From Eubacterium sp. (GTDB lineage: Bacteria; Bacillota; Clostridia; Lachnospirales; Lachnospiraceae): 46,601 bases of DNA. Below, piece after piece: positions 8,138 to 26,326 of this stretch (its first letter is position 1; every line of letters starts with the position of its first letter). A program made the position numbers and the translations under genes. The DNA is taken from NCBI GenBank assembly GCA_017433615.1, contig JAFRGW010000035.1:1-46601 (forward strand). The letters run 5' to 3'. Under the pieces are notes generated by a model that saw nothing but the letters and a program-made list of their open reading frames with translations, did no database searches and had not been told where the DNA came from.

Positions 8138-8140
8138 AAT

Positions 8141-9280: not shown

Positions 9281-9361
9281 TCTTCAAGTTCCTCCGGGTG
9301 TTTTACCTGCAGATGATTCATTTCTGCAGTACATACGGCAGCAGCAGCCCTGCCGCCTTTC

Positions 9362-10273
9362 TCAGAAATCCAGATATACTCTGAATGTCATCGTATCATC
9401 ATTACACTCCCACCGGACATATTCATATCCGTTTACCTGACCGATTCCGTACAGAATGTCCCAGATCATATCCATATCATTCCGGGTCAGCTGCTCACAG
9501 GCCTCTTTGTAGGCCGCCTGGTTATCATACCGGACCTCCAGCAGGGTTCTGCCCAGTTCATACTGTGTCTTGAATGCCTGATAAACACCGTCGTAAGTGA
9601 ACCCGGACATCTTATAGTCGTTCCGCTCCCAGAAACCGACCTCTGGATCATAATAACCCGTATACCAGTCAAATCCTTCTGCAGCCACATGCTCCCGGCC
9701 GTTCTTTTCCAGATCCGACTTATTGACAATGTAGTTATCATAGGAAATATATTCTTTTCCGTTTGCATCATAAGTATCTGTATCATCCCAGCAGACATCC
9801 ACGAAATAAGAAAGTTCCCCATTCAGTTCAACCAGGTTCCATGCGTTCGTTTCGCTGCATACCAGCAGGCAGAAGACGCCGGCACTGTCACAGAGAAATT
9901 TGAAGGCATCTGCATACCCGTGGCTGTTGGCCACACCAAGTACCAGCGCACCATATACATCATCCATGTGCGGTGAACTTTGCGTATAGTCATACCGCAC
10001 CCTGCGGCAGAGTTCATCATGAAACAGACGGACTTTGTCGCGCTCCGATGCATTTGCCGGTATCTTTGCCAGAATCTCATTTGCGGCATCAAAGACTTCC
10101 CGCATCATTCCATTGTCAATTGATCCCGCAGAAGCCACAGGATCCGGCCCGAAATCAGCTGCCTTTGTATCTGCCGCAAGCATCCCGTATGCCATTGTGA
10201 ACACAACAATCGCAATAATAGTTCTGATAAAAAGCGCTTTCAAAAATGCTTTCAAAATACTTTTCATAATCAT
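9362..10273 (-). CDS. Exported transglutaminase-fold pseudoenzyme
   Basis: About 304 residues with an N-terminal signal or anchor segment (about 10-34). The body matches the bacterial transglutaminase-like core: RVRYDYTQ, a GYADAFKFLCDSAG helix, then AWNLVELNG and FVDVCWDD. In active members the helix begins with VCEGYA and the strand with HAWN; here they read NSHGYA and NAWN. The catalytic Cys is therefore Ser (about residue 117) and the catalytic His is Asn (about 143), while the Asp (about 159) remains. It is probably a binding protein rather than a protease. The frame is open to an ATG at 10303, but AGGAGG is spaced 6 nt from the ATG at 10273, so I use that one. It is the first gene of unit C, directly behind the triple-repeat promoter. 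Confidence 0.8.
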   Translation of the reverse strand: MIMKSILKAFLKALFIRTIIAIVVFTMAYGMLAADTKAADFGPDPVASAGSIDNGMMREVFDAANEILAKIPANASERDKVRLFHDELCRRVRYDYTQSSPHMDDVYGALVLGVANSHGYADAFKFLCDSAGVFCLLVCSETNAWNLVELNGELSYFVDVCWDDTDTYDANGKEYISYDNYIVNKSDLEKNGREHVAAEGFDWYTGYYDPEVGFWERNDYKMSGFTYDGVYQAFKTQYELGRTLLEVRYDNQAAYKEACEQLTRNDMDMIWDILYGIGQVNGYEYVRWECNDDTMTFRVYLDF

Positions 10274-10339
10274 CATATTCCTCCTTCTATCCTGCTCTTT
10301 CATTTCTTTTGAACAATGTCCTGTTGTTTCTTTATCTGC

Positions 10340-10405
10340 AGTATAGAGGAATATATTTTAATTGTTCATGATTGTGATTTTAATAATCAATATTTATATT
10401 TTAAT
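10340..10405 (-). promoter_or_regulatory. Triple direct-repeat promoter of unit C
   Basis: Read on the minus strand, three ATTAAAA repeats lie at 10405-10399, 10384-10378 and 10362-10356 (steps of 21 and 22 bp). A TATACT -10 box is at 10345-10340, 17 nt from the start of the last repeat. No TTGACA-like -35 box is present. The distal repeat overlaps the stop codon of the TIR gene. The same arrangement is found at 16753-16817 and 24421-24485. Confidence 0.8.
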
Positions 10406-13400
10406 TTTCATCTCCTTCCTGAATGAATGTGCTGTCAGGCGTCTCACGCAGCTGCTCTTTTCCCATCTGAATCAATTCTTCTGTCGTATAATGCGGCAGC
10501 TTTCCGGGCATCCGCTTCTGGCCGCCGGCAATCACATAAAACGAACCGTGATCCGGTGAATATCCAAGGCAGTCATGCACGGACGTGCGCAGACACCCTG
10601 CATCCAGATCAACGACCGCCAGTTCTTCCGCACAATGGATCCAGAGCATGCGGCCGTCCGGATCTTCTTCCCACTGCACACGTTTTTGAGCACTTTCTTT
10701 TCCGCTCTTCATATTTGTTCCGGCTGTCTTTTCGTCAAATGGAACCGTTTCAATCTGCGCCGTTTCCTTCAGACTTTTTCTGTCATAACGGTGCACCCTT
10801 CCGTTTTCTTCCAGCACAAAGAGATCATCCCGGCACAGAAACAGATCAAATACTGCATACTGCAGACTGCCTGTTGTCCGGATCTCCGTACCTTCTGCAT
10901 CTGAAATCTGTATGACACTCCCGCCTCTTGCAGCAGCCGCTGTCTCTGTGCCATCTGACGAGATACAGACCGGATTATCTGCCGCGATTGTAAAGGGCAG
11001 CACAGTCAATTCATCTCCATTTACCGGAATCTGCATCCACACAGCTGTACCGTTTATACCAGAAAATCCGACAACCGCCTCAGCTGTATCTTTCTGCCAG
11101 GTAAGCACCGGACTGCTTACCGGCTCCTCCGCGATCCTGCAAAACTTTGCAGACCCGTCTGCAACATCGTATATTCCCGCCTGCGAGCCATTCATGCCGC
11201 TTAAAACATAAGCAATCCGGTCCTCATACAATGAAGAGACCGCCAGAATCTGATCTGCAGACGCATCCGGCAGCAGCATCCCGCCCGGCATTCCTGTCCG
11301 TTTCTCCTCCGTCTTTTCATCTGCTGCGGGCTGCGGCAGTGTCACATACTGCGCACGCCCGTCTGCAGCATTCAACAATACCAGCCGCCAGGTCACCAGA
11401 CCGTCTGTCAGCGAGCGCTCTGTCAAAACAATTGTCTGTGCGTCTGCAGTAACTCCCGCAGGGGTGACAGATGCCATATCCGGCTTCCTCCACTGCCACG
11501 CACACGCTGTCTCACCGGCCGGAAACCATGAATAGGTACCGCTGCCGTCCGCCGCCGTTTCCAGAAGGATCCCGGCTTCCGATGTCAGTACCGCCGCATT
11601 TTCTGCCGCCTCTTCCTGTTCCTTGAGTCCCGAAAATTCTTCTGCTTCCGGATTACCTGAACCAAGCTGATACTGAATGATCCTGTCCGGATTCATCAGA
11701 AACCACATCGTATGTCCTGTCACTGCATGCTCCGCAGAAACTCTGACCGTGTTTTCCGCAGAATCGACAAACCCGTACAGAAGAGCTTCCCCGGAAGTGA
11801 CCGCGCCGCTGCGCAGAAAACAACTGACATCGGTGTCTTCTCCGGCGACATCTGTCCCCGATGCCGGCACCGTTTCCTCATATAGAGACAGGATTTCTGC
11901 CGGCTCATGTTCCGCTTTGCACTCTTTTCCGGATGCAGGGCTGAATACGCGCAGCTCTTCTGAGACAGCTACCGCAAGATATACCTGATCCTGCTGCGCG
12001 GCAGTCTCCTGCTCGCGTATGCCCTGTGAAGCATTCTCCTGTTCCGGTATGTTCTGCAGGGTATCTGCATTCCCCCCATACAGCAGCATATGGACGCCAC
12101 TGTCCGTTCTTCCGCTGTACGGAATCTGTTTCCGCCACTGTGCCTTCCCTGTTTCATGATCAATCCGCACAATGGTAAGTTTTCCGCTGTTCCGCTGTTC
12201 TTCCTGCGGCGCAGTGAGTGTCTTTCTTACAGCCGTATTTCCGGCAATATCCTCACGCTTTGAAAATCCTGCAAAAATCAGATCGCCGTCCGGCAGCAGC
12301 AAAACGGACTGCCCCATCTGAAATGTCTGCTTTGGTTCCAGAATTCTGAAGGACCCATCTGCAAAATCCCAGCACACAAGCTGATCGAAATGATAATCAA
12401 CACCTGCGACCCCGGCGCAGATCCACAGCTTTTTCCCATCCGCAGAGGGAAGGAGTCCCGGGTGAGACGGTTCCGCTGTGTTCTGTATATTCTGCCCTGC
12501 TGAATAAGACGGCAGAAAGCGGTAGTGTACGGTTTCTGTAGAAATCTGCTCTGCACTCAGTTTTCCGCTGACTGTTTTCTGAACCGGATCAATCAGAACA
12601 ACCGAATCATATGTTGCAGCCGCAACCTGACCCCCGTCTGTTCCGGGCACCAGCGCGATGCTTCTGATTCCGGTTTCTTCCGTTTCCGGCAGTTCCAGAC
12701 TCCAGCGTTCTGCACCGTCCGAAAACCGGATGTTCATGAGCTTCGCGCCATCGCTGATATAAAATCCGTCTGTTCTGTCATATACAGGCTGTGCGGCATC
12801 CCTTCTGTGCTGATACTGAAACGGCAGCGTTGTAACAACTGTACCGCTCTGTGTTTCAAACACCATAAGCTTCTGCTCTGTACAGACAACCAGATATGCA
12901 CCGTCTGGAGACACCAGACTCGCATAAATCTCCTGCTGTGTCGAAAAGGTACGGGTTGCCTCGATATGAAAGCATCCCTCGGGTACATAAGCACTCAGTG
13001 ATTCCTCCAGTGCGTGAACCGCCTCTGAAGTCTCGGGTCTTTCTTCGCCCGGTTCTGTGCCGCAGAGCGCCTCCAGCGCAAGAGAGATCGCCCGGATCCG
13101 GTCTCCCGCTTCCAGTGTTTCCATGCTGTTGCGCGCCAGAATCTTTGAAGATGCAATCTGGGATTCCCTGAGCAGACCGCGAATCCGTATGTTATTCCAT
13201 GTCAGATATCCTGATACACAGACAAACGCGGCTGACACACCCGCCGCAATCACAGCGTTTCTTCTGGCCCGGTACTGACGCTGCCGCTGCCGGAGTGCAT
13301 CATAGGAGCATCCGAGCATTGCCGCGGCAAGCCGGGGCAGTTCCTCACGTTTTGCCGTCTTCAGCGGCATACGGCAGTCACAGGAGAGCGGCTCCTTTCC

Positions 13401-13793
13401 ATTCGCCCGCAATCTGGCCGGAATTACATCTTCCGGTTCCCCTTCGGCGAGTACGGTCAGGATCTTCTCATCACCGTGCAGCGAAGTAAAAAGCGCGATT
13501 TCCCGCTCAACCCACTGTGACGCAGATGCCTTTGCCGAGCAGACCACAATCAGATATTCCGTCTGCGCGAGCGCTTCCTTGATTTCCTGGCTGAGATCCG
13601 TTGTAAGAGATAATTCTTCCACATCCCGGAAAACCCGTCCGATCCGGTTCTTTCCGGTCTCTATCTGTATGTTTTTCGGAATCCGGAAATGCTCCAGCTG
13701 CCGCTGCAGCCATGCCGCGATCCGCATATCTGGTTCCGCATGCGTATACGATATGAATGCGGAATAGATTTGATTTCTCGCCTGTTCCTGCAC
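10401..13793 (-). CDS. TIR - transmembrane - beta-propeller protein
   Basis: About 1130 residues. An N-terminal TIR domain (about 8-155) shows AFISYTH as box 1, the FRDVEEL loop and WVEREIALF, whose last Glu of WVERE aligns with the catalytic Glu of TIR NAD hydrolases such as SARM1. One membrane segment follows at about 180-200, and then a large beta-rich region with repeated short WD40/quinoprotein-like blades to the end, probably outside the cell. This TIR-TM-propeller order suits a sensor whose outer part detects a ligand and whose inner part acts on NAD or binds partners; that role is inferred. The frame is open to a TTG at 13811, but GGAGG lies 8 nt before a GTG at 13793, so I place the start there, 2 bp after the upstream stop codon. 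Confidence 0.85.
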   Translation of the reverse strand: MQEQARNQIYSAFISYTHAEPDMRIAAWLQRQLEHFRIPKNIQIETGKNRIGRVFRDVEELSLTTDLSQEIKEALAQTEYLIVVCSAKASASQWVEREIALFTSLHGDEKILTVLAEGEPEDVIPARLRANGKEPLSCDCRMPLKTAKREELPRLAAAMLGCSYDALRQRQRQYRARRNAVIAAGVSAAFVCVSGYLTWNNIRIRGLLRESQIASSKILARNSMETLEAGDRIRAISLALEALCGTEPGEERPETSEAVHALEESLSAYVPEGCFHIEATRTFSTQQEIYASLVSPDGAYLVVCTEQKLMVFETQSGTVVTTLPFQYQHRRDAAQPVYDRTDGFYISDGAKLMNIRFSDGAERWSLELPETEETGIRSIALVPGTDGGQVAAATYDSVVLIDPVQKTVSGKLSAEQISTETVHYRFLPSYSAGQNIQNTAEPSHPGLLPSADGKKLWICAGVAGVDYHFDQLVCWDFADGSFRILEPKQTFQMGQSVLLLPDGDLIFAGFSKREDIAGNTAVRKTLTAPQEEQRNSGKLTIVRIDHETGKAQWRKQIPYSGRTDSGVHMLLYGGNADTLQNIPEQENASQGIREQETAAQQDQVYLAVAVSEELRVFSPASGKECKAEHEPAEILSLYEETVPASGTDVAGEDTDVSCFLRSGAVTSGEALLYGFVDSAENTVRVSAEHAVTGHTMWFLMNPDRIIQYQLGSGNPEAEEFSGLKEQEEAAENAAVLTSEAGILLETAADGSGTYSWFPAGETACAWQWRKPDMASVTPAGVTADAQTIVLTERSLTDGLVTWRLVLLNAADGRAQYVTLPQPAADEKTEEKRTGMPGGMLLPDASADQILAVSSLYEDRIAYVLSGMNGSQAGIYDVADGSAKFCRIAEEPVSSPVLTWQKDTAEAVVGFSGINGTAVWMQIPVNGDELTVLPFTIAADNPVCISSDGTETAAAARGGSVIQISDAEGTEIRTTGSLQYAVFDLFLCRDDLFVLEENGRVHRYDRKSLKETAQIETVPFDEKTAGTNMKSGKESAQKRVQWEEDPDGRMLWIHCAEELAVVDLDAGCLRTSVHDCLGYSPDHGSFYVIAGGQKRMPGKLPHYTTEELIQMGKEQLRETPDSTFIQEGDEN

Positions 13794-13795
13794 CG

Positions 13796-16708
13796 TTATG
13801 TCCTCCAGCAATTTCTTACCATAATCCGGTCACTCTCAATGAAATCGCGGTCTTTCCACTCCGGGTTCCGGCTCTGCATCAGATGATTGAACTCTGTTTC
13901 CACATATTTCAGGCGGTTCCAGTCCACAATACACGGATGGAGTTTTGCCAGATAAAGCTGCTGTCTCGGATTGCCCATTCCGATATACTGCTGCATCCGC
14001 GCGACAGAAGCCTGCCGCCATCCGCGGCTGCACACAAAATAATTCCAGCGTATGTGTTCATCCCTGGTTGCCTTCTCCTCGTGCACGGGCTCTTCGAGCC
14101 ACCGCTCCCAGAGTTCTCTTCGCTGCACCTCTGCCTCCGGTGACTGATCGCCTGCTCCGGCCCCGGCAGAATCCGGACGCAGCAGTCCCGCAAGATACAG
14201 TTTATAAATGCCTGACATGGCAGACCGTTCACTTGCCTCACGGTTATAACATCTGGACCAGTAATCCAGACCGGCGTCAAAAAGATGATTCCCCGCATCA
14301 CCATAGTAGGCGCAGTGCAGTGCAAATGCACGCGTCTTCCACGGACTGTCAAGAAGCGTCTCCTTTGTGTACATCTGGCCGCTGCTTCCGAAACAGCAGA
14401 TGTCATAGCGGTTGTACCAGGCAAAGCCGATGCGCTCACCGGGCACCTGAAAACGCGCCGCCTGCCCTGAGAGAACCTCCGATTTCACGTACGCTGCGAT
14501 CAGCGGCCGGTTTCTGAGATCCATTCTGGTAAGTGTCTCCCGCAGACGGACTGCCCTCTGCAGATTCTCCCTGTCATCATTCCCGGCCGCAATGTAATAA
14601 TTCCAGCCGAACCGGAGACGTTCCCACGCAGGATCTTTGTCTTTATTGAACTCCAGTTTTCTGAAAAAATCGCCTTCTGACACTTCCATGAAGCTGACAG
14701 AAACCGGAAGTTTTTCCGGGGCATTTTCCTCAAAAAGAGCCGGCGCCAGATCCAGAAGCTTTTGCTTCACTTCTCCGGCCTGCTCATCAATTACTGTAAT
14801 AGAAAGCGGCTTTCCGTCGCGGTCTTCCGGCAGCACGGAAAGCATGTCACAGATCAGCTGCGGTACAATCCCACCCGCACCGAGCACTGCCACTGCCGGT
14901 TTTCTGTAACGTCCGGATATCACCGGCGCAAAAAGCGGCGCATGTGTCAGCAGCCATGCGGATGCGTCCTTCGCAGGGTCGCAGAGCGTGATTCTGAAAT
15001 AAGCTTCTCTGCGGAATTCGTGTGCCGCGTTACAGGTGTCAACAACCCTCTCAGCTGTCTCGTCCCCCGCACTGCAGCGCACAAAAAACCGGATATTTTC
15101 CAGCAGCCGGGCATTGTCTTCCCCGGCGTTCCGGATCTCCTGATTAAATCTGCCTGTGATCCGTACCAGGCATTCAAGATTGTTTTCTGTATCTGTGTCG
15201 AAGAGGAAGAAGATGGCACGGCTGTCTGCTGCGCTGTTTTGCATCCATTCCTCCAGGCAGGGGTCAATCCCATTTCCTGCCTGCATAATCAAATCCCATG
15301 CTGCATTCCACATCAGCATTTCATTTTCACTCTGCAGTCTCACTGCACGCCATCCGCGGCCGAGTGAACGGAGAAATGTCCGTGTGGATTCATTGTCGGC
15401 ATTAAAGAAACAGACACGGTCGGTATGATCCTCTGTTTCTGTCTCCTCCCGGATATCAGACACGTTTTGCGCGGCATTGCCGGGCTGCATCCAGTAATAT
15501 GCAGCCTCTTCATCACCATTCTGCGCAGCACGTCCGTACCAGGTGTCAGCCTCCTGCAGTCTGCCAAGTGCCTCCAGACACTTCGCCAGCATCCGCTGGC
15601 TGACGGCATCCGAAGCCCCGGCGCCCTGCCGGTAATACGCTGCAGCAGCAGAAATATCTTTTTCAATCCCGAATGCTTCTGCCCCTCTGTAATAAAGATT
15701 GCCCAATTCCCGCATGGCTGACGGCGATCCCGCTCCGGCACTCTGCCGCAGCGCTTCCAGTGCGTCCTGATATTTCTTTTCTTCTGTAAAACATTCATAC
15801 AGCGCATAGGAGGCAGCCGGATGAACACCCCCTGCCGCCAGCTCATTTGCCTCTGTAAAACTGGCAATCGCACTGGCCGGATCCCGACGGCATTCCAGAC
15901 CGTTCTGAAACATTTTTCCGATTGCGCACGCCGCATCTGCCGCGCGGGCACCGCCCTCACGCAGCAGCTGCCGCCAGAGTTCCCGGGCCGCTTTATATTC
16001 ACCTCGCGCTTCCAGTGCCAGTGCTGTTTCTTCAAGACTTTCCGGACTGTCATCTTCCCTGGCGTCCGCCGGAAACAGCTGCGGCTGACAAGCCTGTGCC
16101 TGTTCTGCCAGAAGAAGTGCAAGCACCGCACGCGCAAATGCTTTTTCCGGTGCCAGATCATAGAAGTAACTGAGCTCTTTTCTGTAAGGTTCCTTCTGCT
16201 TTTCGTCTGCTAACGGAATGCACACATCCATCAGGAGCGCATCACGCAGACGCTCCCCGTCAAACTGCGGTTCACCGTCTGCATACAGGAGCCGCACCGC
16301 TTTCTCCTCTGCCTCCCGCAGAACCGCTGCAGGCTGCTCCTTAAGAACCCGGGCCATCTCCGCACGGCGGGCCTTTACATTGTTATAGCCGTTGTACAAA
16401 AAGGCCGCAAATGAATTGCCTTTCTGCAAAACCTCTGCTTTCCCGCAGGCAGCGCTGTCACCGGCCACACTGCTTTCTGCCTGCTCCGGCGGCTGTCCGG
16501 TTTTTGATTTCCGCGGGCGTCCGCGTCCGGTCTTTTTCTTCTCTGTATCAGAGGGCGTCGCGCACATGAGCAGAACATCCGGAATTGTCCGCTCCAGCTT
16601 TTCTGCAGTCGTGCGGATGTCCGCAGCCGGCCATATGACCGGTTCCGGAACATCCAAAAGCAAATGAAAGAGTTCGGCGAGCGAAGCGCCTGTTTCGTTA
16701 TAAACCAT
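13796..16708 (-). CDS. Sel1-repeat / Rossmann / RyR-like multidomain protein
   Basis: A 970-residue soluble protein. An N-terminal region contains an AT-hook-like GRGRPRKSK at 61-69. Residues about 230-410 hold Sel1/TPR-type helical repeats (AAASYALYECF, SAMRELGNLYYRGA, DAVSQRMLAKCLEALG). Around 600-640 is a Rossmann-like strand-loop-helix, VAVLGAGGIVPQLICDML, with an acidic strand (ITVIDE). The last 100 residues have EHIRWNYF....GW and LHPCIVDWNRL, a signature I associate with the C-terminal domain of bacterial RyR/TrkA-N-like proteins. AGAGGA lies 8 nt before the ATG. It is the first gene of unit B and its last codons carry the ribosome binding site of the TIR gene, so the two are tightly coupled. 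Ligand or nucleotide sensing for the TIR protein is an inference. Confidence 0.7.
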   Translation of the reverse strand: MVYNETGASLAELFHLLLDVPEPVIWPAADIRTTAEKLERTIPDVLLMCATPSDTEKKKTGRGRPRKSKTGQPPEQAESSVAGDSAACGKAEVLQKGNSFAAFLYNGYNNVKARRAEMARVLKEQPAAVLREAEEKAVRLLYADGEPQFDGERLRDALLMDVCIPLADEKQKEPYRKELSYFYDLAPEKAFARAVLALLLAEQAQACQPQLFPADAREDDSPESLEETALALEARGEYKAARELWRQLLREGGARAADAACAIGKMFQNGLECRRDPASAIASFTEANELAAGGVHPAASYALYECFTEEKKYQDALEALRQSAGAGSPSAMRELGNLYYRGAEAFGIEKDISAAAAYYRQGAGASDAVSQRMLAKCLEALGRLQEADTWYGRAAQNGDEEAAYYWMQPGNAAQNVSDIREETETEDHTDRVCFFNADNESTRTFLRSLGRGWRAVRLQSENEMLMWNAAWDLIMQAGNGIDPCLEEWMQNSAADSRAIFFLFDTDTENNLECLVRITGRFNQEIRNAGEDNARLLENIRFFVRCSAGDETAERVVDTCNAAHEFRREAYFRITLCDPAKDASAWLLTHAPLFAPVISGRYRKPAVAVLGAGGIVPQLICDMLSVLPEDRDGKPLSITVIDEQAGEVKQKLLDLAPALFEENAPEKLPVSVSFMEVSEGDFFRKLEFNKDKDPAWERLRFGWNYYIAAGNDDRENLQRAVRLRETLTRMDLRNRPLIAAYVKSEVLSGQAARFQVPGERIGFAWYNRYDICCFGSSGQMYTKETLLDSPWKTRAFALHCAYYGDAGNHLFDAGLDYWSRCYNREASERSAMSGIYKLYLAGLLRPDSAGAGAGDQSPEAEVQRRELWERWLEEPVHEEKATRDEHIRWNYFVCSRGWRQASVARMQQYIGMGNPRQQLYLAKLHPCIVDWNRLKYVETEFNHLMQSRNPEWKDRDFIESDRIMVRNCWRT

Positions 16709-16752
16709 TGATCGATCCTCTCTTTTTATGTTTTGCTGTTCTTTATGATTGT

Positions 16753-16817
16753 ATCATAGGAGAACATTATTTAATTTGAATTCCTTACTTTTTAATATAT
16801 CATGATTTTATTTTAAT
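16753..16817 (-). promoter_or_regulatory. Triple direct-repeat promoter of unit B
   Basis: On the minus strand, ATTAAAA at 16817-16811, ATTAAAA at 16796-16790 and ATTAAAT at 16775-16769 are spaced exactly 21 bp. TATGAT at 16758-16753 starts 17 nt after the last one begins. The start of the transcript (CATAAAGAACAG) is nearly the same as that of unit A (CATAGAGAACAG). Confidence 0.8.
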
Positions 16818-16835
16818 AAAAATACTCCTTTGTAC

Positions 16836-16890
16836 AAAAAGGGGATGCGGCATTACGCAAACGACTGCATAAATGCTGCATCCCCTTTTT
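16836..16890 (-). terminator. Terminator of unit A
   Basis: A long hairpin with stem AAAAGGGGATGC.GCATT pairing AATGC.GCATCCCCTTTT, flanked by A/T tracts on both sides, lies directly after the metalloprotease stop codon and before the unit B promoter. It separates units A and B. Confidence 0.9.
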
Positions 16891-16906
16891 ATTCAAATGG
16901 TACCGG

Positions 16907-18541
16907 TTATCCGGCGACCGGTTCTGTGATCACATTGAAATCCTGATCCAGACCAATGTAGAGCAGTCCCTCGTCTGCATCATCCGGAATGGTATAACGG
17001 CCGCTCTCTGTCGCGACGAGCATTCTTCCGCCGCCCTCGACATCCTGCGGGTTTACTTCCGTATAGAGTGATACCGCGCGAAGATTGTCCTCGTACTCCT
17101 TCATCTGCGCAAGATCACCGGACAGGGTCTCAATAAAGAAATCCAGTGCCAGCTTACTCAGCCACTCTTCGTTATCATTTGCAAAACTGCCGGCAACTTC
17201 CTGCGGGAAGGTATATTTTTCATCAATTTCTTTTTTGAACGACGCCGGAACAACGGACGCAAGGCAGTTTGCCTCTGTTTTATCGTGTTCACTCGTGCTT
17301 CTCCAGTATTCATGCACCTTCGCAAAAATATCATCCCCTGCGTGCTGGGACAGATACTGTGAGAAAAGATAAACCGCGCCGTACGCACCGATATACTCGT
17401 CATTATCCGTTGCGAAATTATACAGCGACTGACCCTTGCGGTAGGAATCACTCGCATACATCATCAGGTTGTATTCACCGGCCTCCTTAATGCCCGGATA
17501 TACCATTTCTTCGGCATAAGCAGACATCGCCTCGTTCAGCCAGGTCCTCATTTTCGGTGTGTCATTTGTATAGAAATAATCCGATGCACAGATCTGATGC
17601 TGGAACTCGTGGGCAAGCGTGGATTTTACAAAATCATTGTCAACGCCGATCATATCAGAATTGACACTGATAATTGCATGATCTGTATTCATGCCATAGG
17701 ATACTCGCATCTCTTCCGATACCTCTGTTCCGGAGAAGATATCATAGATACAGAACAGGCCGCCGATTCCCTGCTGCATAGGATAGAACAGCATATTAAC
17801 CTTACCGCCGTTTTCAGTGAAACGTCCCGGTCCAAAGGCATCCACATCCTTCTGGTAGATCACCTCGTCGAATTCTTTTCCGAATTCTTCGGCAGAGGCG
17901 TCATCTATGGAGCCGTCCAGTGACCAGATGTAACAGTGTTCGCCGGCGTAAATACAGTCAAATGTATCTTCGCTTCTGGCTGTCATCATCCCGGTAAAAT
18001 GATAGAAGTCATGACTGTCGCCGACCCTGTAGACCGGATCCAGCCCCCCGGCTTTCGCGCCGCTCCGGTTTGTCTCGCCCAGATCAACGTCATACGCACT
18101 CTGTGAAATAACAGATTCCGGATTAATTCCGCTTCCCAGATCCCCGGCGCGGTTCATCCCTGTGATAATCTGCGAGCTGAGATCACCTGTGTTCAGTGAG
18201 GACAGCGCCATCATTGATTCTTCAATCTCATCAAACAGCTTCGGGTTATAAATCATTACAAAACTTGCATCAATCGCTCCGCTGCCGCCTGATGCTCCGC
18301 CGGAAGCCATCTGGGACGCATTCACTGCATCCTGATCTTCTACCGTTCCGGCAACATCCGATGCGCTCTCCAGTGCATTGACATCCGCATCACTTCCGGC
18401 AGAAACAGAGGATGCCGCCGATGAAGCTGCGGTTTCGGATGCGGATGATGCTGCTTCCTCTTTTTGTGCGCCGCCGCAGCCTGCCAGCAGACCGGCAGAA
18501 AGTGCAAGTGTCAGAATTGCTGTAATCAGTCGTTTTTTCAT
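16907..18541 (-). CDS. Lipoprotein zinc metalloprotease (HEFQH, M30-like)
   Basis: About 544 residues. It starts with a lipoprotein signal peptide (MKKRLITAIL, lipobox LLAGC with Cys22), followed by a long Ala/Ser-rich spacer that would reach through the wall. The catalytic region has AHEFQHQI at about 310-317 and WLNEAMSAYAEE about 20 residues later, giving the HExxH plus Glu arrangement of gluzincins such as hyicolysin (family M30). The second half contains YLSQHAG and other helices of this fold. The frame is open to 18619, but AAGGAGGAGAAC precedes the ATG at 18541. It is the last gene of unit A, followed by a strong terminator. A cell-surface protease is well supported; its substrate is unknown. 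Confidence 0.85.
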   Translation of the reverse strand: MKKRLITAILTLALSAGLLAGCGGAQKEEAASSASETAASSAASSVSAGSDADVNALESASDVAGTVEDQDAVNASQMASGGASGGSGAIDASFVMIYNPKLFDEIEESMMALSSLNTGDLSSQIITGMNRAGDLGSGINPESVISQSAYDVDLGETNRSGAKAGGLDPVYRVGDSHDFYHFTGMMTARSEDTFDCIYAGEHCYIWSLDGSIDDASAEEFGKEFDEVIYQKDVDAFGPGRFTENGGKVNMLFYPMQQGIGGLFCIYDIFSGTEVSEEMRVSYGMNTDHAIISVNSDMIGVDNDFVKSTLAHEFQHQICASDYFYTNDTPKMRTWLNEAMSAYAEEMVYPGIKEAGEYNLMMYASDSYRKGQSLYNFATDNDEYIGAYGAVYLFSQYLSQHAGDDIFAKVHEYWRSTSEHDKTEANCLASVVPASFKKEIDEKYTFPQEVAGSFANDNEEWLSKLALDFFIETLSGDLAQMKEYEDNLRAVSLYTEVNPQDVEGGGRMLVATESGRYTIPDDADEGLLYIGLDQDFNVITEPVAG

Positions 18542-18615
18542 GTTCTCCTCCTTATCTGGCTGATTTTTTCTGCTGCATATATATTTTTCTATTTCTACAG
18601 ATAACTGCAGGATTA

Positions 18616-20178
18616 TCACTGCATTTCATCCGGTGTGATCGTCACCACATCCTCCGCATAATTCAGCAGTGCGCCGCCGCCCTGCTTGCGGACCTGGATC
18701 CGGAAGGAAATCTCAGGTACCTGGTTTTCCTGAATTCTCAAAAATGCAGATAAATTCCGCTTCGCATGTGCACCGATTTCATCAGAGCGAAAATATGGTT
18801 TCGCTTCACTTTCATCCGCCGGCACACCGTTGACAACCGCATCTTCCATACGCAGTTCGATGTTCTCATCTGTCTTATTCACGACTGCCAGATCCCAGTT
18901 ACAGTAGCCGTGTGCCTCCTCCTGGTATTCATCTTCCGGATACCAGTCAATCCGGGTACCGATATAACCGAGCTGAATCCAGTCATCTTCATAAATCACT
19001 TCACCGGGTGCAAATACATCTGACAATTCTCCGTGCTGCGTCAGTTTCACCGGGTACCAGTTGCCGCCTGCGCTCCGCATCATGACACCGGTATTCTGTT
19101 CTGTATCAGTCAAAACCTGAAGTTTCATCTCCGCAGCGGATGTGATTCCGGCTTCTTCCAGCTCGCTTTCACCAATTCTGAAATCAAAGTATCGAAGAGC
19201 TCCCGCCGGGAGACTGCCTGATCCGCTTCCGTCTGAATAGAGTTCAACGGTTCTGCCATTTACTTCCGCAGCCGATATATGATATGGAATTGTCTCCTGT
19301 GAATCGTTCTCAATACAAAGAATTCCTGAGATCCCGTCTGATGCGCCGTAGTATCCGCCGCATCCAACAAGCGAAATCTTAATGCCGCCTTCATCACGCA
19401 GCACCTGCGCTTCCGCCAGCATATCATATGCCGGTTCACAAATCAGTTCCGGCGCATAATCTTCAGGGAAAGAAACTTTAAACGGTTCTTCTGTCAGCAA
19501 CTTCTGATTTCCATTCTCGTCCTGTTCCCAGGAATAAACCTGTGCCATACCGGATATCGACTCCAGTGCGATCCCGTCCCGCTCCATCAGCAATATGGAC
19601 TGGGTGAGGGAATCCGACTGACTGTCAGCCGCACTCCCGGGTTCTGTAGAGACAAACACATTTGCATCCGTACAGATATCATCATTCAGATGAATGTCAT
19701 TGATCTCAAAAATCAAGTTATCTTCCGCGGCACTGGAAACACGGAATACATCACATCTGACGCCGCTGTCATAGCGAAGCCCGCACAGATATTCCGCCGT
19801 AATCCCCAGTTCGTCAAATACCGGCCAGCGATACTGCTGTCCGGCAGCATCCATTCCGGTCTGAAGTGTGCCCGTACTTTCTCCTCCGGCGTCTTTTTGC
19901 AGCCCCGCCTCTGATCCGGCTTCAGCGTCTGCTCCTTCTGCCGGTTCTGCCGTTGATCCGGCATCAGTGCCTGCTCCTTCTGCCGCTGATGCGGCTTCAC
20001 TTCCCGACGCCTGCAGACCTTCTGATAAAAGCGATGCAGAAGACGACGATGCACCCGCACCCTGATCCCGCGGAATTTCGCCGCTGCAGCCCGCCGCCAG
20101 CAGGCCAAATGCACAGAAGCCCGCCAGAATCCATTTCCTGTATTTTGTTATGATTGTGCTCTGTTTTTTCACACGCAC
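18616..20178 (-). CDS. Lipoprotein sharing a domain with the adjacent C11 protease
   Basis: 520 residues, GTG start (a second GTG two codons on is possible), GGGAGAGG upstream. The signal peptide ends in a lipobox, LLAAGC, and is followed by about 70 residues of Ala/Ser/Glu-rich spacer. The mature part is beta-rich. Its last 250 residues parallel the C-terminus of the neighbouring clostripain-like protein: WYPVKLTQHGE versus WCPVELSQRGE, then VIYEDDWIQL versus VLFENEQMQI, then CNWDLAVVNKTDENI versus CWDLWLINKTDDVI. I infer a shared binding or structural domain. I do not recognise a named family. It begins 9 bp after the protease gene and is co-transcribed with it, so it may be a partner that presents substrates or holds the protease at the surface. 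Confidence 0.75.
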   Translation of the reverse strand: MRVKKQSTIITKYRKWILAGFCAFGLLAAGCSGEIPRDQGAGASSSSASLLSEGLQASGSEAASAAEGAGTDAGSTAEPAEGADAEAGSEAGLQKDAGGESTGTLQTGMDAAGQQYRWPVFDELGITAEYLCGLRYDSGVRCDVFRVSSAAEDNLIFEINDIHLNDDICTDANVFVSTEPGSAADSQSDSLTQSILLMERDGIALESISGMAQVYSWEQDENGNQKLLTEEPFKVSFPEDYAPELICEPAYDMLAEAQVLRDEGGIKISLVGCGGYYGASDGISGILCIENDSQETIPYHISAAEVNGRTVELYSDGSGSGSLPAGALRYFDFRIGESELEEAGITSAAEMKLQVLTDTEQNTGVMMRSAGGNWYPVKLTQHGELSDVFAPGEVIYEDDWIQLGYIGTRIDWYPEDEYQEEAHGYCNWDLAVVNKTDENIELRMEDAVVNGVPADESEAKPYFRSDEIGAHAKRNLSAFLRIQENQVPEISFRIQVRKQGGGALLNYAEDVVTITPDEMQ

Positions 20179-20187
20179 CTCTCCCGG

Positions 20188-23100
20188 TCAGCCCCTGACC
20201 GCCCTGTCAGCCGGCAGCACAAATAATTCTGTCTCTGTATACCCTTCTCTGCTTATTTCTTTGATCTCAGCAAAGACATCGTATCCGGAAGGATCCGGTT
20301 CTTCGGCGTTCAGATACTTCTTTGCTTCTACAAGTTCTGCACTTCCGGGGCCGATTTTTCCCACTGCCGTATAATTCGGCGCTTCCTCTCCTTCTTCCAG
20401 AATATCCATCATGATGACGTCATCTGTTTTATTGATCAGCCAGAGATCCCAGCACAGCGAACTAAGGGCATCGTCGGCGTATGTATACGCAAAATCAGAA
20501 GAATCTGCTTCTTCTGTTTCCGGATCAGCTGCTGTATTATACAGCCGGATCTGCATCTGCTCATTTTCAAAAAGGACATCACCAAATGCATCCGGATTTA
20601 CCGTATCCTGTTCTCCCCTCTGAGAGAGTTCAACAGGACACCAGACAATCTCCCCGCCCAATACCGTCAACACACGCATGCTGCCGATCGATGCAATCCG
20701 TTCCGGGCGCTCCTCAAAGCTGTTCTCCACAGCCCCCCGGATCCTCTTGAACGGAATGGACAGACTTTTATACCACTTCCCGCCAGGTGCAATCTTATTA
20801 TCGGCATCGTTCCGGAAAAACACGCCGTCAATCTCTACGCCCCAGGCACAGACTTCTTTCTCTTCCTTCGAAAGATTTTCCATACAGAGCACCAGATTTG
20901 CATCTGCGTATTCTCCGTCCGGATCTTCGTTCGGTGTCAGGTACTGTCCGAAATCCAACAGTGTAACACGCACATCGTTCGTCTCTGTCAGGACCTGCCG
21001 TTCCGCCAGTGCACCGAGCGCCGGCATAAGAACCGTCTCAGCCTGTACCTGATCGGCAATCTGCAGTTCCACCGGCCTGTCATAAATAAGATAGGCAGAA
21101 TTATCTTCCCGGCGCAGTTCCATCCGGAAAGCAAGTTTCTCAACTGCATCAATCCCTGCCAGTCTGCACATATTAGATATATCTGGTATCGCCTCATAGC
21201 CTTTCTCACCCGGCTCCAGCGTCATATAAACAGATCCATTTACCGACAGCGTGTTATTCACATACAGATCTCCGATCTGCAGCCGAACCGGATATTCATT
21301 CTCGTTGACAGCGGAAATCATATAGAAATCTTTGCCGCCGGCCGGATCTTCAGCTATCCGTACATCCGCCTTCACACCGGCCTCCTCCAGGATTGCGCTT
21401 TCGCTTCCCTTCTCCCACCGGATCGTCTGAATCTGCTCATTTGTTCCGGCGGCTTCGACAGGTGCCTTCTCCAGTGTAACCGGAAGCAGCTCGGATTCAT
21501 AGTGGTTCCCCTGTACGTCCTGTACATCAAACATGATGTAATATTCCATGCCGTCATCGTACATGGACTCGTAATAAAAATGAATCCCGTTCGCGACCGC
21601 CAGTTCATTGCCGGTGATCCAGTCACCCTCCGGCCACTCCCAGAAATTGATGATCCTCCCTGCATCATCCCGGGTCAGATAGCGCTCCCGGACATTATAA
21701 AACCTGAGCCATTCCCATTCGTCGAGATTCAGAGGCTGTTTTTTACCGCCTGAGATCCCGCTCTCATCATCTTCATTCTCATAAATACCCTTGACCGTCA
21801 GCTCGCCAGTTTCCTCATTTACGGCAATGGTTCCGGTCGCATTACAGATCTCATATTTTTCATCTGAATCCTCGTCTGCCAGAAAATCCCCGCGGCTCGC
21901 CTGCATATTCAGGACAGAGTATTCCGTAACGCCTTCTGTCGTGTCCCACATCCGTGTCACGGGTATATGTCTGCTGCCGTATTCATCCGAAACATAGATC
22001 GCTTTTCCGCCGAATTCTGCCGTCAGAAGTCCGTTCTTGTCCGTAACATTTGTACTCATAAAGACCGGCGCATACAGTTCCTCTCCGCGCCGCTGCAGAA
22101 TATAATATGCCGCACTGGCGAACTGTTCTTCCTGCTCCGGTGTCAGCTGCATCTGGTAAACAGACGGTCTGTCGCCCTTGACGGGCTGCATCTTTTCCGT
22201 GAATGCCTCTTTCAGGTCAGTTCCGAGCCAGATCTTTTCATACCGCTCCAGATAACTGTGGTAATGCGGAAAAAATCCCATTTTGGCATATTCATCTTTC
22301 CACGCAGCCATATAATAGTTTTTATTGTAGTAGGGATAAAACAGACTCAGTCCGCAGCATCCGTCCACATTTGCTTTCGAATACAAGACGCAGTCATCCA
22401 GTGCATGCAGCGCAGCCTGCGCTTCTTTTGGATAGCGCTGTGACATTTCCTGCAGCATACTTTCCATGTCTACCAGATCATATTCCGATCCGGTACTGGC
22501 TCTTCCGAGACCATGTGTGTGTACACGCGCAACTGCCAGCTTGTTAAAATCACCACTGACATCATCCTGTGCAGCGGCAAACAGCGCATCAATTGCTTCC
22601 GCCAGTTTCTCCGTATAGCCAAGATCCAGCGCCGCAAGCGTCACGTCACTCTGGAAAAACTCCTTGTCCTGAAAGTAGTCTTCGCAGAAAGAAATATATT
22701 GTTCTACAACTTCTGCCGCCAGCACATCGGAAGACTTATGACCGACATCCTTCAGAAACTGATAATTCCAGCCGAAGCTCGGTTCCGTTTCCTGGGATGC
22801 AATCAGATAATCCGCATAGTCCGATACCGTACAGGCAAGTTCTGCCGATGCCATCAGACAGGCATCAAACCCGATGATTGATAATTTTTTCCCTGCTTTT
22901 TCCGGGACGCCGGATTCTGCCGAAGCATTGTTTCCCGCAGCGTCATCGCCGCCGGTCCCAAAAGGCGATGCCTCCAGCGCCTCCTTCATCTCCGGCAATG
23001 TCAGACCGTCGCCGCCAAAAACCGTGTCACTCCCATAACCAATCACAGGACCGCTTCCATGATCCCAGAGAATCAGGTCATAGGCATCCGCAGGGTAGTT

Positions 23101-23697
23101 CTCGTAACCATACTGCAGAAACCGCGCCAGATTTGCCGGGTCGCCCATGGAAGTCTGTTCGTATGTCTCCAGTTCCGTCCATCTCCCCTGCTCCAGATGG
23201 AACAATGTATTGGCGTCACTCGGAACATCGCTGTGCCAGTCCGTGGATCCGCCTGCGTAGATCAGTACATTGGTACAGGACGGATCAATCCCGCTGGCGG
23301 CGATCTCCGCCATATCATCTGTAGCGGCAGAGCCGGACGATTCCAGATCTGATCCGACCATATAAATCATGAGCGTAACGGTCTCCGGCTCTTCCAGCAC
23401 ACCTGCATCCGGCAGAACATCATCTTCATCAGTGCCGGGAAGCTTCGGCGTCCATACAGCCGGCTTATCAGCGTTCCCGATCTGGAACGGATCCACTTCC
23501 GGTTTCTCCGTATCACTGATCCGGAACGGATTGCTCTCCGCATCGCCCACGGTGCCCGTGGTGCTGCTCCGATCTATGTTTGCATCTGCAGAAATACATT
23601 GATTACATATAACAAAAAAAACACAGCAGATCAGCATCCGGATGATCCTCCGGATGCGTCTGCTGTTATGATTTTGAATACCTGTATTTCTCTTCAT
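20188..23697 (-). CDS. Clostripain-family (C11) cysteine protease, large secreted form
   Basis: About 1169 residues, against roughly 500-800 for many C11 proteins. A signal peptide (about 15-36) is followed by an acidic spacer, then the C11 catalytic domain: LMIYMVGSDLES, LILWDHGSG with the catalytic His at about 213, and IIGFDACLMASAEL with the catalytic Cys at about 280, then ASQETEPSFGW. The remaining 700 residues are beta-rich modules, the last two homologous to the lipoprotein encoded next. C11 enzymes cut after Arg or Lys and mature by self-cleavage. The frame is open to an ATG at 23868, but that part does not look like an exported protein and has no ribosome binding site, so I start at 23697 (GGTGGG just upstream). 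Second gene of unit A. Confidence 0.88.
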   Translation of the reverse strand: MKRNTGIQNHNSRRIRRIIRMLICCVFFVICNQCISADANIDRSSTTGTVGDAESNPFRISDTEKPEVDPFQIGNADKPAVWTPKLPGTDEDDVLPDAGVLEEPETVTLMIYMVGSDLESSGSAATDDMAEIAASGIDPSCTNVLIYAGGSTDWHSDVPSDANTLFHLEQGRWTELETYEQTSMGDPANLARFLQYGYENYPADAYDLILWDHGSGPVIGYGSDTVFGGDGLTLPEMKEALEASPFGTGGDDAAGNNASAESGVPEKAGKKLSIIGFDACLMASAELACTVSDYADYLIASQETEPSFGWNYQFLKDVGHKSSDVLAAEVVEQYISFCEDYFQDKEFFQSDVTLAALDLGYTEKLAEAIDALFAAAQDDVSGDFNKLAVARVHTHGLGRASTGSEYDLVDMESMLQEMSQRYPKEAQAALHALDDCVLYSKANVDGCCGLSLFYPYYNKNYYMAAWKDEYAKMGFFPHYHSYLERYEKIWLGTDLKEAFTEKMQPVKGDRPSVYQMQLTPEQEEQFASAAYYILQRRGEELYAPVFMSTNVTDKNGLLTAEFGGKAIYVSDEYGSRHIPVTRMWDTTEGVTEYSVLNMQASRGDFLADEDSDEKYEICNATGTIAVNEETGELTVKGIYENEDDESGISGGKKQPLNLDEWEWLRFYNVRERYLTRDDAGRIINFWEWPEGDWITGNELAVANGIHFYYESMYDDGMEYYIMFDVQDVQGNHYESELLPVTLEKAPVEAAGTNEQIQTIRWEKGSESAILEEAGVKADVRIAEDPAGGKDFYMISAVNENEYPVRLQIGDLYVNNTLSVNGSVYMTLEPGEKGYEAIPDISNMCRLAGIDAVEKLAFRMELRREDNSAYLIYDRPVELQIADQVQAETVLMPALGALAERQVLTETNDVRVTLLDFGQYLTPNEDPDGEYADANLVLCMENLSKEEKEVCAWGVEIDGVFFRNDADNKIAPGGKWYKSLSIPFKRIRGAVENSFEERPERIASIGSMRVLTVLGGEIVWCPVELSQRGEQDTVNPDAFGDVLFENEQMQIRLYNTAADPETEEADSSDFAYTYADDALSSLCWDLWLINKTDDVIMMDILEEGEEAPNYTAVGKIGPGSAELVEAKKYLNAEEPDPSGYDVFAEIKEISREGYTETELFVLPADRAVRG

Positions 23698-23891
23698 TTT
23701 CCCACCAGGACATGCTTTGCAAAGTATCTCGACGTCATCAACGGGTCCTGCTGTATCTATCATATCACAAAATTGATTCTGCCGAGATAGAAACTTATTC
23801 CTGCGGGAAAATTCAGCTGTTTGCGGCAGATTCCGGTCCCGCCCGTCCGAGGCGGGGGACTCCCCCATCTGCGTTGATCCAGTCTGTCACA
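23698..23891 (-). other. Intergenic spacer with GC-rich overlapping hairpins
   Basis: A 194-bp gap inside unit A. At 23838-23866 CCCGCC pairs with GGCGGG (7-nt loop), and the same G run can instead pair with CCCCC to the right, giving two mutually exclusive hairpins. No T tract follows. It may attenuate expression of the protease relative to the small first gene; I see no other feature here. Confidence 0.4.
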
Positions 23892-24323
23892 TCAGGCAAT
23901 CTGTCCCACTTCAATCTGAATGATTACTCTGTCTTTATCACAAATAACATGCACGTTGTCTTTCTCATCTCTCTGCAGAATCTCATACACTGCCGTCCAG
24001 ATCAGCACAAGATCATCCCAGCCCAGATCATCCTTCATTTCACGATAATACCCGTCTTTATCTTCATCTCTGGTTTCAAAATATTTCTCTACGATTTCCA
24101 AAAGCTTATGCAGCCAGGAATCTTCATTCTCATTCGGATCGTCCGGCAGATCTGTTTCGTCATCAAATGAACCAGTCGTTTCAATCGCGATCTTCTTGAC
24201 CTGCGGAAGCTTCTGAGCAGATGCTGCAAAAACAGATACATCCCCCGCTAACAGATAGAGGATCCCGACAGCCGCAAACCCAATCATCATCCTGACTATA
24301 AAATGTCTTACAACCGCTTTCAT
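23892..24323 (-). CDS. Small exported protein, first gene of unit A
   Basis: About 143 residues with a signal peptide (hydrophobic FIVRMMIGFAAVGILYLLAG, probable cleavage after VFAASA). The mature part is acidic. It contains DEDKDGYYREM near the middle, which resembles the start of an EF-hand/calcium loop (D-x-D-x-D-G) but lacks the usual Glu at position 12, and it ends in alternating strands (VHVICDKDRVIIQIEVG). AAGGAGGAAATT precedes the ATG at 24323; a longer frame to 24350 has no site. No family recognised. It lies directly behind the triple-repeat promoter and could be an inhibitor, propeptide-like partner or signal for the proteases that follow; this is only inferred from position. Confidence 0.65.
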   Translation of the reverse strand: MKAVVRHFIVRMMIGFAAVGILYLLAGDVSVFAASAQKLPQVKKIAIETTGSFDDETDLPDDPNENEDSWLHKLLEIVEKYFETRDEDKDGYYREMKDDLGWDDLVLIWTAVYEILQRDEKDNVHVICDKDRVIIQIEVGQIA

Positions 24324-24420
24324 AATTTCCTCCTTCTGCTGTATCAGCAAATATTTTCATTTCGTTGTTAACTTTCGTCAGTTCCTTCTCTCGATTTGTT
24401 TTTCTGTTCTCTATGGTTGT

Positions 24421-24485
24421 ATGATAACGGAACTATTTTTAATTGGCTTTATTATTATTTTAATACGCGTGCCTTTCCCTTTAAT
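24421..24485 (-). promoter_or_regulatory. Triple direct-repeat promoter of unit A
   Basis: On the minus strand, ATTAAAG at 24485-24479, ATTAAAA at 24464-24458 and ATTAAAA at 24443-24437 are spaced 21 bp. TATCAT at 24426-24421 begins 17 nt after the start of the last repeat. TTCC lies between repeat and -10, as at the unit C promoter (TTCTCC at unit B). No -35 consensus is seen. Confidence 0.8.
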
Positions 24486-24487
24486 AA

Positions 24488-24874
24488 TTCACTTGTTTTT
24501 GCATTGAAGAACAGAGCGACGTAACTCCATACGATGCTCCTGTGCTTGGATATGTACAAGGTGAAGCCGATATTTTCACCTATGACCTTCGAACTGTTAC
24601 ATTTGATCTATCATCAAAATCTGCGGAAGGTGAAGAACCCGAAAACGAACGATATGAAAAAACAGGAACTGTAATAGGCCCGAATCCTCATAATCCAAGT
24701 TTGAATGAAAAATACGGAAACAATTCCTGGGATATTAAATACGGAGATAATCCCGTTCGCGAGTTGGTTTTTTTCAGAGATGATATCGATGTTAGCGCTT
24801 ATATCGGAAAAGAAGTCACATTTTCTTTTGTATATGGAGACAATCACGCAGTTGATGCTTACATCGTCGAATAA
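24488..24874 (+). pseudogene. Orphan plus-strand gene remnant
   Basis: An open frame runs from just after a stop codon at 24485 to TAA at 24874, about 128 codons. It encodes a protein-like sequence (TPYDAPVLGYVQGEADIFTY, then YGDNPVRELVFFRDDID and VTFSFVYGDNHAVDAY). It has no ATG, no ribosome binding site and no promoter; the only usable start is a GTG at 24542 without a site. Base composition is clearly more AT-rich than its neighbours. It looks like the 3' end of a longer gene whose 5' part was replaced by the unit A promoter. I do not recognise the family. Confidence 0.5.
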
Positions 24875-24875
24875 T

Positions 24876-24909
24876 AAGGAACTGCCGAACATAAAGTCGG
24901 CAGTTCCTT
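24876..24909. terminator. Bidirectional terminator
   Basis: A perfect 13-bp stem, AAGGAACTGCCGA with TCGGCAGTTCCTT, and an 8-nt loop are followed by ATTTT on the plus strand and by TATTATT on the minus strand. It ends the orphan plus-strand remnant and probably also the binding-protein gene. Confidence 0.9.
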
Positions 24910-24994
24910 ATTTTCGCTTATCGAGACAGGTTTTCCAAATAAAAGCTGTTTTTTCGAACATGAACTACATTGGGATTCGCCTCCTGCTGAAACA

Positions 24995-26044
24995 TCATCC
25001 ATTAAACCGGTCAATCACATCCCGAACCGTTCCGTCAGCGATCAAATCATTCAGTGCGTCCGAAACTGCCTGATAAAGGTTCGAGTGATCTTTTTTGATT
25101 CCAATCGCATAAGATTCTGATTCCAGCCATGCATCGGATCCCTCAATCTTTACCAGATCGTCATTCCCGCTCACATAATAATCTGCCAGTTCCTCAGACA
25201 TAAACAGTATGTCAACGGCACCTGTACGCATCTGCGTAACTGCTGAATTGAGATCCGCAAATGAACTTATAGAGTGATCAGATCCAAATTCTATTTGGCA
25301 CATAGCCTCTGTTGTTGATGCCGTCTGACAGCCGATAACCAGCCCTTCGAGATCTTCTACTCCGGCAGCTGCAGCCGCATTGCTGTTTTTCACTGCAACA
25401 GCAGCCTGATATGTCTCATAATAAGGTTCTGTAAAATCAAGCACCTGCTTCCTTTCTTCGGTCGCCGTGATGCCTGACATCGCAATATCCTCCTCTCCCT
25501 CCTCGGTAGAAGAAAGGATCTCATCAAAATTCATCGGGTCCACGGCAAGCTCAAGTCCGAGTTTTTCTGCAATTTTTGCAGCGATCTCAATATCAATTCC
25601 AGTATATGTTCCATCATCATTCACATATTCGAACGGAGGATAATCAATATCTGTTGCCATGTGCAGTTTTCCACTCTCTGTCAGTTCAAGATCATCCGCG
25701 ATGCCGGAAGCACTGTCACTGTCAGCTTCCGGGGTACTCGATCCCGATGTATTTGAAACCACATCCACTGTCCCCGATCCCGGATCAGGCTTCGGAAGTG
25801 TTTGAAGACGCAGCAGCTGCCAGATAACAACGACCACAGCCGCAGCCAGAAGAAGCAGCCACCATTTTTTGGAGAAAGCGTGTTTGTGACGATCATCATG
25901 TGGAATGCCAACGGCATCATTCTCCCTGATATAATTCTTATCAGTATTATTTTTATCCAAAGACTTTTCTTCCGGAGATATTCCGCACTCCTGCAGTGTC
26001 GGTTCCGCATGCAGAGATCTTTTTTCCAGCATATAATTCTTCAT
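24995..26044 (-). CDS. Membrane-anchored amino-acid-type substrate-binding protein
   Basis: 349 residues. The C-terminal 230 residues are a family 3 solute-binding domain: LHMATDIDYPPFEYVNDDG, GIDIEIAAKIAEKLGLEL, DIAMSGITATEERKQVLDF, then the hinge and second lobe to DVIDRFNG. Instead of a lipoprotein signal it has a hydrophilic N-terminus of about 60 residues containing HDDRHKHAFSKK, then one membrane segment (WWLLLLAAAVVVVIWQLL) and a Ser/Asp-rich linker. No permease or ATPase gene is adjacent, so it is either served by a transporter elsewhere or is a receptor. It has its own promoter at 26080-26109 and ends at the bidirectional terminator. AGGGGG lies 4 nt before the ATG. Confidence 0.88.
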   Translation of the reverse strand: MKNYMLEKRSLHAEPTLQECGISPEEKSLDKNNTDKNYIRENDAVGIPHDDRHKHAFSKKWWLLLLAAAVVVVIWQLLRLQTLPKPDPGSGTVDVVSNTSGSSTPEADSDSASGIADDLELTESGKLHMATDIDYPPFEYVNDDGTYTGIDIEIAAKIAEKLGLELAVDPMNFDEILSSTEEGEEDIAMSGITATEERKQVLDFTEPYYETYQAAVAVKNSNAAAAAGVEDLEGLVIGCQTASTTEAMCQIEFGSDHSISSFADLNSAVTQMRTGAVDILFMSEELADYYVSGNDDLVKIEGSDAWLESESYAIGIKKDHSNLYQAVSDALNDLIADGTVRDVIDRFNG

Positions 26045-26079
26045 CGGGCCCCCTGTTCGTTATTGAAAAATGCATTTTC

Positions 26080-26109
26080 AGTATATCATCCTTCCTGTTT
26101 TTTAGACAA
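26080..26109 (-). promoter_or_regulatory. Vegetative promoter of the binding-protein gene
   Basis: On the minus strand, TTGTCT at 26109-26104 and TATACT at 26085-26080 have an 18-bp spacer, about 35 nt before the ATG. Confidence 0.6.
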
Positions 26110-26166
26110 TAATATATAAAATAATGCGTGTGAAACAAATTTAGAGTATGATTGAGGCTTTTCAGC

Positions 26167-26247: not shown

Positions 26248-26254
26248 GTCAAAT

Positions 26255-26312: not shown

Positions 26313-26326
26313 ACAGGACTCGTTAC

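Follow-up and report, generated by a model that had tools for sequence, protein, structure and literature searches.

Does a single control protein switch an entire accessory gene cluster in Eubacterium sp. (Lachnospiraceae)? The question is raised by contig JAFRGW010000035.1 of assembly GCA_017433615.1, a stretch of 46,601 nt (the window, which is the whole contig), where three minus-strand promoters carry the same array of three ATTAAA boxes followed by a −10-like hexamer. Each promoter stands at the head of one unit of genes, and the contig end cuts the region before position 1. Judging from the sequence, we give a probability of about 0.6 to the reading that a single dedicated transcription factor binds at the nine boxes and, as far as the assembly shows, controls only the three operons of this island.

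Three ATTAAA arrays and their promoters

The arrays and their parts are as follows (the −10 boxes are putative).

24485-24421, minus strand: promoter A, array and −10
24479-24485, minus strand: promoter A, repeat 1, ATTAAAG
24458-24464, minus strand: promoter A, repeat 2, ATTAAAA
24437-24443, minus strand: promoter A, repeat 3, ATTAAAA, 17 nt from its start to the −10
24421-24426, minus strand: promoter A, putative −10, TATCAT
16817-16753, minus strand: promoter B, array and −10
16811-16817, minus strand: promoter B, repeat 1, ATTAAAA
16790-16796, minus strand: promoter B, repeat 2, ATTAAAA
16769-16775, minus strand: promoter B, repeat 3, ATTAAAT
16753-16758, minus strand: promoter B, putative −10, TATGAT
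10405-10340, minus strand: promoter C, array and −10
10399-10405, minus strand: promoter C, repeat 1, ATTAAAA, overlapping the stop codon of the TIR gene
10378-10384, minus strand: promoter C, repeat 2, ATTAAAA
10356-10362, minus strand: promoter C, repeat 3, ATTAAAA, 22 bp after repeat 2
10340-10345, minus strand: promoter C, putative −10, TATACT

The boxes are spaced by 21+21 bp in promoters A and B and by 21+22 bp in promoter C; the last heptamer starts 17 nt before the −10 hexamer in all three. These coordinates, spacings and the 17-nt distance had been given in a first-pass annotation, made from the sequence alone, and proved exact. The first six positions of the heptamer are invariant in nine of nine copies, and the seventh base is A in seven. 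Outside the boxes and the −10, identical positions number 20 of 58 (A and B), 22 of 58 (A and C) and 22 of 58 (B and C). The profile of the nine copies holds 2.0 bits at each ATTAAA position and 0.25–1.08 bits at positions 10 to 15 from the box start, so no conserved unit lies between the 21-bp copies; the 11-bp tandem units of an OmpR/PhoB-type operator do not appear.

The triple pattern has three matches in the window and none in 100 dinucleotide shuffles. When all hexamers were scanned at 20–22 bp, only ATTAAA and its complement reached three triple arrays in the window; in locally composed shuffles no hexamer formed a triple array in 54 of 60 cases, and the largest count per hexamer was one in the other six. 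The pattern of two copies and a −10 matched three sites in the 2.97-Mb assembly, all of them the promoters described here (reversed control, none). The three-copy pattern, with at most three mismatches over 22 fixed positions, found promoters A and B alone (reversed control, none; about 0.015 random matches expected if equal base frequencies are assumed); promoter C falls outside this fixed pattern owing to its 22-bp interval. The first-pass annotation had proposed such a genome-wide search, and no other site was found, so the pattern does not recur in AT-rich intergenic DNA of this genome as often as at promoters. Since the same triple repeat is present at three promoters and nowhere else in the assembly, one control protein probably switches the whole cluster, and the three promoters would be co-regulated.

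Downstream of the −10, A and B have 27 of 34 bases in common (none of 2000 shuffles was as good), which bears out the earlier remark that the early transcript of two units is nearly identical. The same segment of C resembles neither (1479 of 2000 shuffles were as good against A, 505 of 2000 against B). The agreement of A and B is what one would expect if one promoter cassette had been copied without function; copying of this sort, or chance, is extremely unlikely to explain the arrays, given that the boxes are invariant while the DNA between them has diverged and that shuffles yield no comparable result. A separate observation is that the post-−10 DNA of A and B (24387-24426 and 16719-16758, minus strand) is nearly identical despite this divergence between boxes. 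An RNA element in the leaders was considered and ruled out: no Rfam match was obtained in 8000-26500, folding gave nothing notable for A or C, and the B fold was weak (16 of 200 shuffles as good).

We also compared the arrays with the core promoter. The best TTGACA match at 15–20 nt spacing scores 3/6, 4/6 and 4/6 in the three promoters; the −35 consensus, said earlier to be missing, is thus absent or at best poor. Box 3 lies within the −35/−10 spacer and the other two boxes are both upstream of the −35 position, box 2 ending 8, 8 and 9 bp short of it in the three promoters. If transcription starts ~7 nt after the −10, the last box covers about −29 to −23. Its centre is 16.5 bp (1.57 turns) from that of the −10, i.e. 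on the opposite face of the helix, a placement that may have steric meaning.

These features suggest how the proposed regulator could act. Three subunits (or three DNA-binding domains) would sit in tandem on one DNA face, two helical turns apart, with the last bound unit in the spacer between −35 and −10. As a good −35 is missing from all three promoters, the regulator would most likely be an activator that stands in for it, in a mode like the sigma adaptation described for the SARP regulator AfsR. We infer protein binding and activation from the DNA, and likewise the family of the regulator and the place of its gene, whether on the island's missing part or at another locus.

Two other functions of the boxes have to be weighed at this point. 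A repressor, of the LytTR type or another, could use them as operators in the way of CoxC, which blocks its promoter from three 8-bp repeats at 18–21-bp intervals over the −35, all three being needed (PMC11347149). The position of the last box, between −35 and −10, would suit a repressor as well; a promoter under repression would be expected to possess an adequate −35, and with scores of 3, 4 and 4 out of 6 we consider this explanation rather doubtful. Alternatively, AT-rich boxes in helical phase could act as phased A-tracts, giving intrinsic curvature or help like that of an upstream-promoter (UP) element, with no specific protein. Curvature would accept other A-tracts and the same hexamer is found in nine of nine copies; moreover, the usual UP region lies upstream of the place of the last box. 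Both points make this alternative unlikely.

The cluster and its relatives

The genes behind the three promoters form three units.

16907-24350, minus strand: unit A, four genes: 152-aa protein, Peptidase_C11 (clostripain family), lipoprotein-like protein (by eye), Peptidase_MA-like protein
10401-16708, minus strand: unit B, two genes: Sel1/TPR protein, TIR protein with PQQ_2-like repeats
15-10303, minus strand: unit C, seven genes: transglutaminase-like, membrane, Hsp70-family, AAA+, TPR, unknown 389-aa and AAA_28/CYTH proteins; the contig ends here
16835-16895, minus strand: strong hairpin followed by a T-run, from folding, after unit A and just upstream of promoter B
1-26159: region for which the syntenic contig stretches of G299 and G081 (both congeners) hold no match

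The first-pass annotation had defined a single regulon of 13 genes. Confinement of the pattern to this cluster agrees with it; the exact figure does not stand, and 13 genes are a minimum since the window is the whole contig and the contig end truncates the region. The hairpin after unit A has a folding energy of −38.8 kcal/mol for 16906-16828 (z −7.45). A simple scan gave no terminator between units B and C; transcription of unit B may thus continue into C, a weak indication because the same scan overlooked the strong hairpin after unit A. Adjoining promoter A, an open frame on the plus strand (24488-24874) has no listed ATG start, and a strong hairpin with a T-run stands at its end; it is either what remains of a gene or a small gene that starts with GTG.

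Down to the rubrerythrin gene at ~26.2 kb, gene order is common to this contig and those of both congeners, beginning at 46.5 kb for G299 and at ~41 kb for G081 (the start of its fetched stretch). From the rubrerythrin gene to position 1 no match was found in what is left of the two congener contigs, 9 kb for G299 and 13 kb for G081, which suggests an island gained here rather than lost in the relatives. At its edge, the rubrerythrin gene has its 3′ end repeated as a short copy (26159-26240), and a partial second match occurs there in G299 too. The solute-binding gene at 24995-26044 has its closest genus relatives at only 42–45%.

Relatives of the cluster proteins are rare. The TIR protein was found in one of five genomes of the genus, the own one, and the Sel1 protein in two of 299 family genomes including the own (the other, G289, has a partial match and no further cluster gene in the fetched 40 kb). 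Three of 397 family genomes, the own among them, matched a combined query made from the Peptidase_MA-like and TPR proteins, with only two first-look candidates scored per genome; the metalloprotease profile matched two of 392 genomes of the order including the own, the other (G675) partially at E 6e-22. For the clostripain-like protein, three pattern matches in the genome contig collection yielded no confirmed relative. The TIR protein had no match in viral contigs and the Sel1 protein none in plasmids.

The box pattern was followed through other genomes as well. In the family, 36 of 299 genomes (the own included) carry the two-copy pattern, at 49 sites by hand count, 46 of them foreign; the reversed control gave 37 hits, so there this pattern is near background. 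A third exact box 20–22 bp upstream was present at one of 29 foreign loci examined (out of the 46), and there it was inside an open frame. Three-copy scans elsewhere returned at least 119 stretches in the genome contig collection and 23 in viral contigs. None of the cluster proteins was among the matches listed for 26 window queries at these 142 loci, where only KsgA and isoleucyl-tRNA synthetase matched, and many of the 45 rows inspected for three-copy loci in other genomes were simple repeats. No relevant literature on ATTAAA or 21-bp direct repeats in Lachnospiraceae was among the matches listed.

Candidate regulators

Direct repeats two helical turns apart had been compared with LytTR operators in the first-pass annotation. 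Proteins of this class bind direct repeats of ~21 bp, three of them in the cases of RcoM1 and CoxC (PMC11347149); the two-turn period and the triplets thus have LytTR precedent. A LytTR regulator is thereby supported only in part, and the single LytTR protein found in the genome is conserved where the TIR gene was not found.

The intervals of 21 and 21, 21 and 21, and 21 and 22 bp are within the LytTR-type period (~19–22 bp). Like the arrays described here, the RcoM1 and CoxC operators have three short direct repeats two turns apart, with 12–13-bp spacers for RcoM1 and, for CoxC, the intervals over the −35 given above; their boxes, TTCNNGCA and TTNNNGCN, are unlike ATTAAA. The CoxC gene is within its own target cluster, whereas no regulator was identified in the cluster here. 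The LytTR pairs of AgrA, PlnC and HdrR share the ~21-bp period, and the PlnC box TACGTTAAT also has TTAA (PMC2714321), which is all that it has in common with ATTAAA, the LytTR consensus being broadly defined. Such pairs consist of two repeats above the −35, those of AgrA with the proximal repeats centred near −60 (PMC4227749); here boxes 1 and 2 end 8–9 bp above the −35 position and box 3 is inside the spacer.

One LytTR protein was found in the genome, a response regulator encoded on contig C108 and not linked to the target genes. It could activate the island through the upstream box pair, which sits where LytTR pairs sit. It is the only LytTR match in the genome, and its FIRCHNS stretch resembles the FFRCHNS motif of AgrA (PMC4227749). 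The 8-, 8- and 9-bp gaps also compare well with the LytTR-system repeats of S. mutans, 4–11 bp above the −35, with a bias to 10 elsewhere (PMC6193735). This protein is nevertheless an unlikely regulator: it is conserved in G299 (90%) and G081 (79%), two congeners in which no TIR protein was found, and the two-copy site is absent from G081 (G299 was not among the genomes searched for it). Its own upstream DNA has no ATTAAA triple by eye, and the mismatch scan found none outside the window. A linked LytTR regulator might lie beyond the contig end.

The second family to consider, which the first-pass annotation had not named, is SARP. Operators of AfsR, DnrI and ActII-ORF4 resemble the arrays in having heptameric direct repeats, sometimes three, one or two turns apart, as well as a short fixed distance to the −10, a poor −35 and control of a gene cluster (PMC10936776, PMC10972967); unlike the present case, they are described in Streptomyces. 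The AfsR box is centred at −29.5 in the spacer of a promoter with a poor −35 (PMC10936776). Taken together, the interval of the arrays is nearer to LytTR, and the −10 distance with the missing −35 is nearer to SARP, with neither description fully matched by the sequence; we consider a SARP/OmpR-like and a LytTR-like regulator about equally likely. The operator type itself is of a known kind. Mycobacterial PafBC provides a parallel for the proposed mode, as a −26 motif is read and the regulator lies between promoter DNA and sigma domain 4; the excerpt of that paper (PMC11804915) describes no triple repeat.

Several observations weigh against a dedicated activator of the island. SARP direct repeats are 11 or 22 bp apart and the 3′ repeat is 8 bp from the −10 (PMC10936776), whereas five of six intervals here are 21 bp and the distance to the −10 is 10 bp, fixed in three of three promoters. 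In a Pfam scan of the 13 cluster proteins at E 0.001, no DNA-binding domain reached its cut-off. The more distant clusters of G058 and G129, with a metalloprotease and a clostripain-like gene (in G058 also a TIR gene), have neither an exact two-copy site nor an ATTAAA-like triple, so there is no phylogenetic footprint. Finally, the assembly is 94% complete with 6.9% contamination. Contamination was ruled out as the cause of the uniqueness of the pattern, as the isoleucyl-tRNA synthetase of the contig is single-copy and 99% and 95% identical to those of G299 and G081, which places the contig in the genus. Since the island is cut by the contig end, the regulator may lie beyond it, and absence of its gene from the window does not mean absence from the island.

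Other candidates were examined among the proteins encoded in the window. No SARP/BTAD regulator was found by Pfam among the 13 cluster proteins (a genome-wide SARP search was not made). A permissive rescan of six of them gave zinc ribbons of weak score, the best of these at E 0.004 on the membrane protein, and an AT-hook in the Sel1 protein (P0005); the AT-hook raises the possibility that a cluster protein controls its own genes. The AT-hook match covers residues 61-70, with the stretch GRGRPRK, at E 0.96 and 10.0 bits against a cut-off of 17.4, and a single hook would probably not set a 21-bp array; control by this protein or another of the cluster is very unlikely. The earlier statement that no regulator gene is in the window is to be corrected, as a Fur-family gene is located at 27014-27448. 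It belongs to the conserved flank, with same-place relatives in G299, G081 and G010, and is not a likely candidate. RemA-type binding was rejected: RemA sites are modestly conserved, AT-rich 7-bp repeats that recur periodically with gaps of 3 bp (PMC8481266), unlike the boxes.

A more specific version of the proposed control can be put forward only tentatively. A mobile island might carry a sigma-adapting activator of its own, whose family has so far not been associated with operators of this kind in Clostridia, and switch on a conflict system of surface protease, TIR, Hsp70 and AAA+ proteins as a unit through a three-box array that replaces the −35. The arrays in any case define, from sequence alone, a compact candidate regulon, one rare accessory cluster with TIR, clostripain-family, Hsp70 and AAA+ proteins, and the box offers a handle for tracing the regulator, and also the signal by which a possible conflict or defence cluster is switched on.

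The Hsp70–AAA+ pair and minor features

For the Hsp70 protein (5525-8137), 242 plasmid records contain a match, which in 10 of the records covers at least 80% of the protein. In four records examined out of the 242 (plasmids of Polaromonas, Shewanella, Aeromonas and Vibrio), an Hsp70 gene with ~40% identity is followed by a relative, at 32–37%, of the AAA+ protein encoded at 3979-5514; the Aeromonas record has the Hsp70 gene annotated as two pieces. The pair adjoins Tn7-like transposition genes in Shewanella and Aeromonas and is a few genes from zorA in Polaromonas, which suggests a mobile conflict or defence module. Hsp70-bearing conflict systems were described by Kaur et al. 2020 (PMC7159879), in an excerpt that does not contain the gene set of this cluster. 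The AAA+ protein matches IetA defence models (best 7.9e-24), yet with 80 bits against an NCBIfam cut-off of 510 it was rejected as IetA and taken as a general AAA+ match.

Two features of the flank may be added. A second clostripain-family gene, at 44154-46526, is 91% conserved in G299. A strong AT skew (−0.54, −0.33) at 31000-33000 falls in a gene for a 1402-aa protein (29920-34128), whose repetitive middle aligns poorly between congeners.

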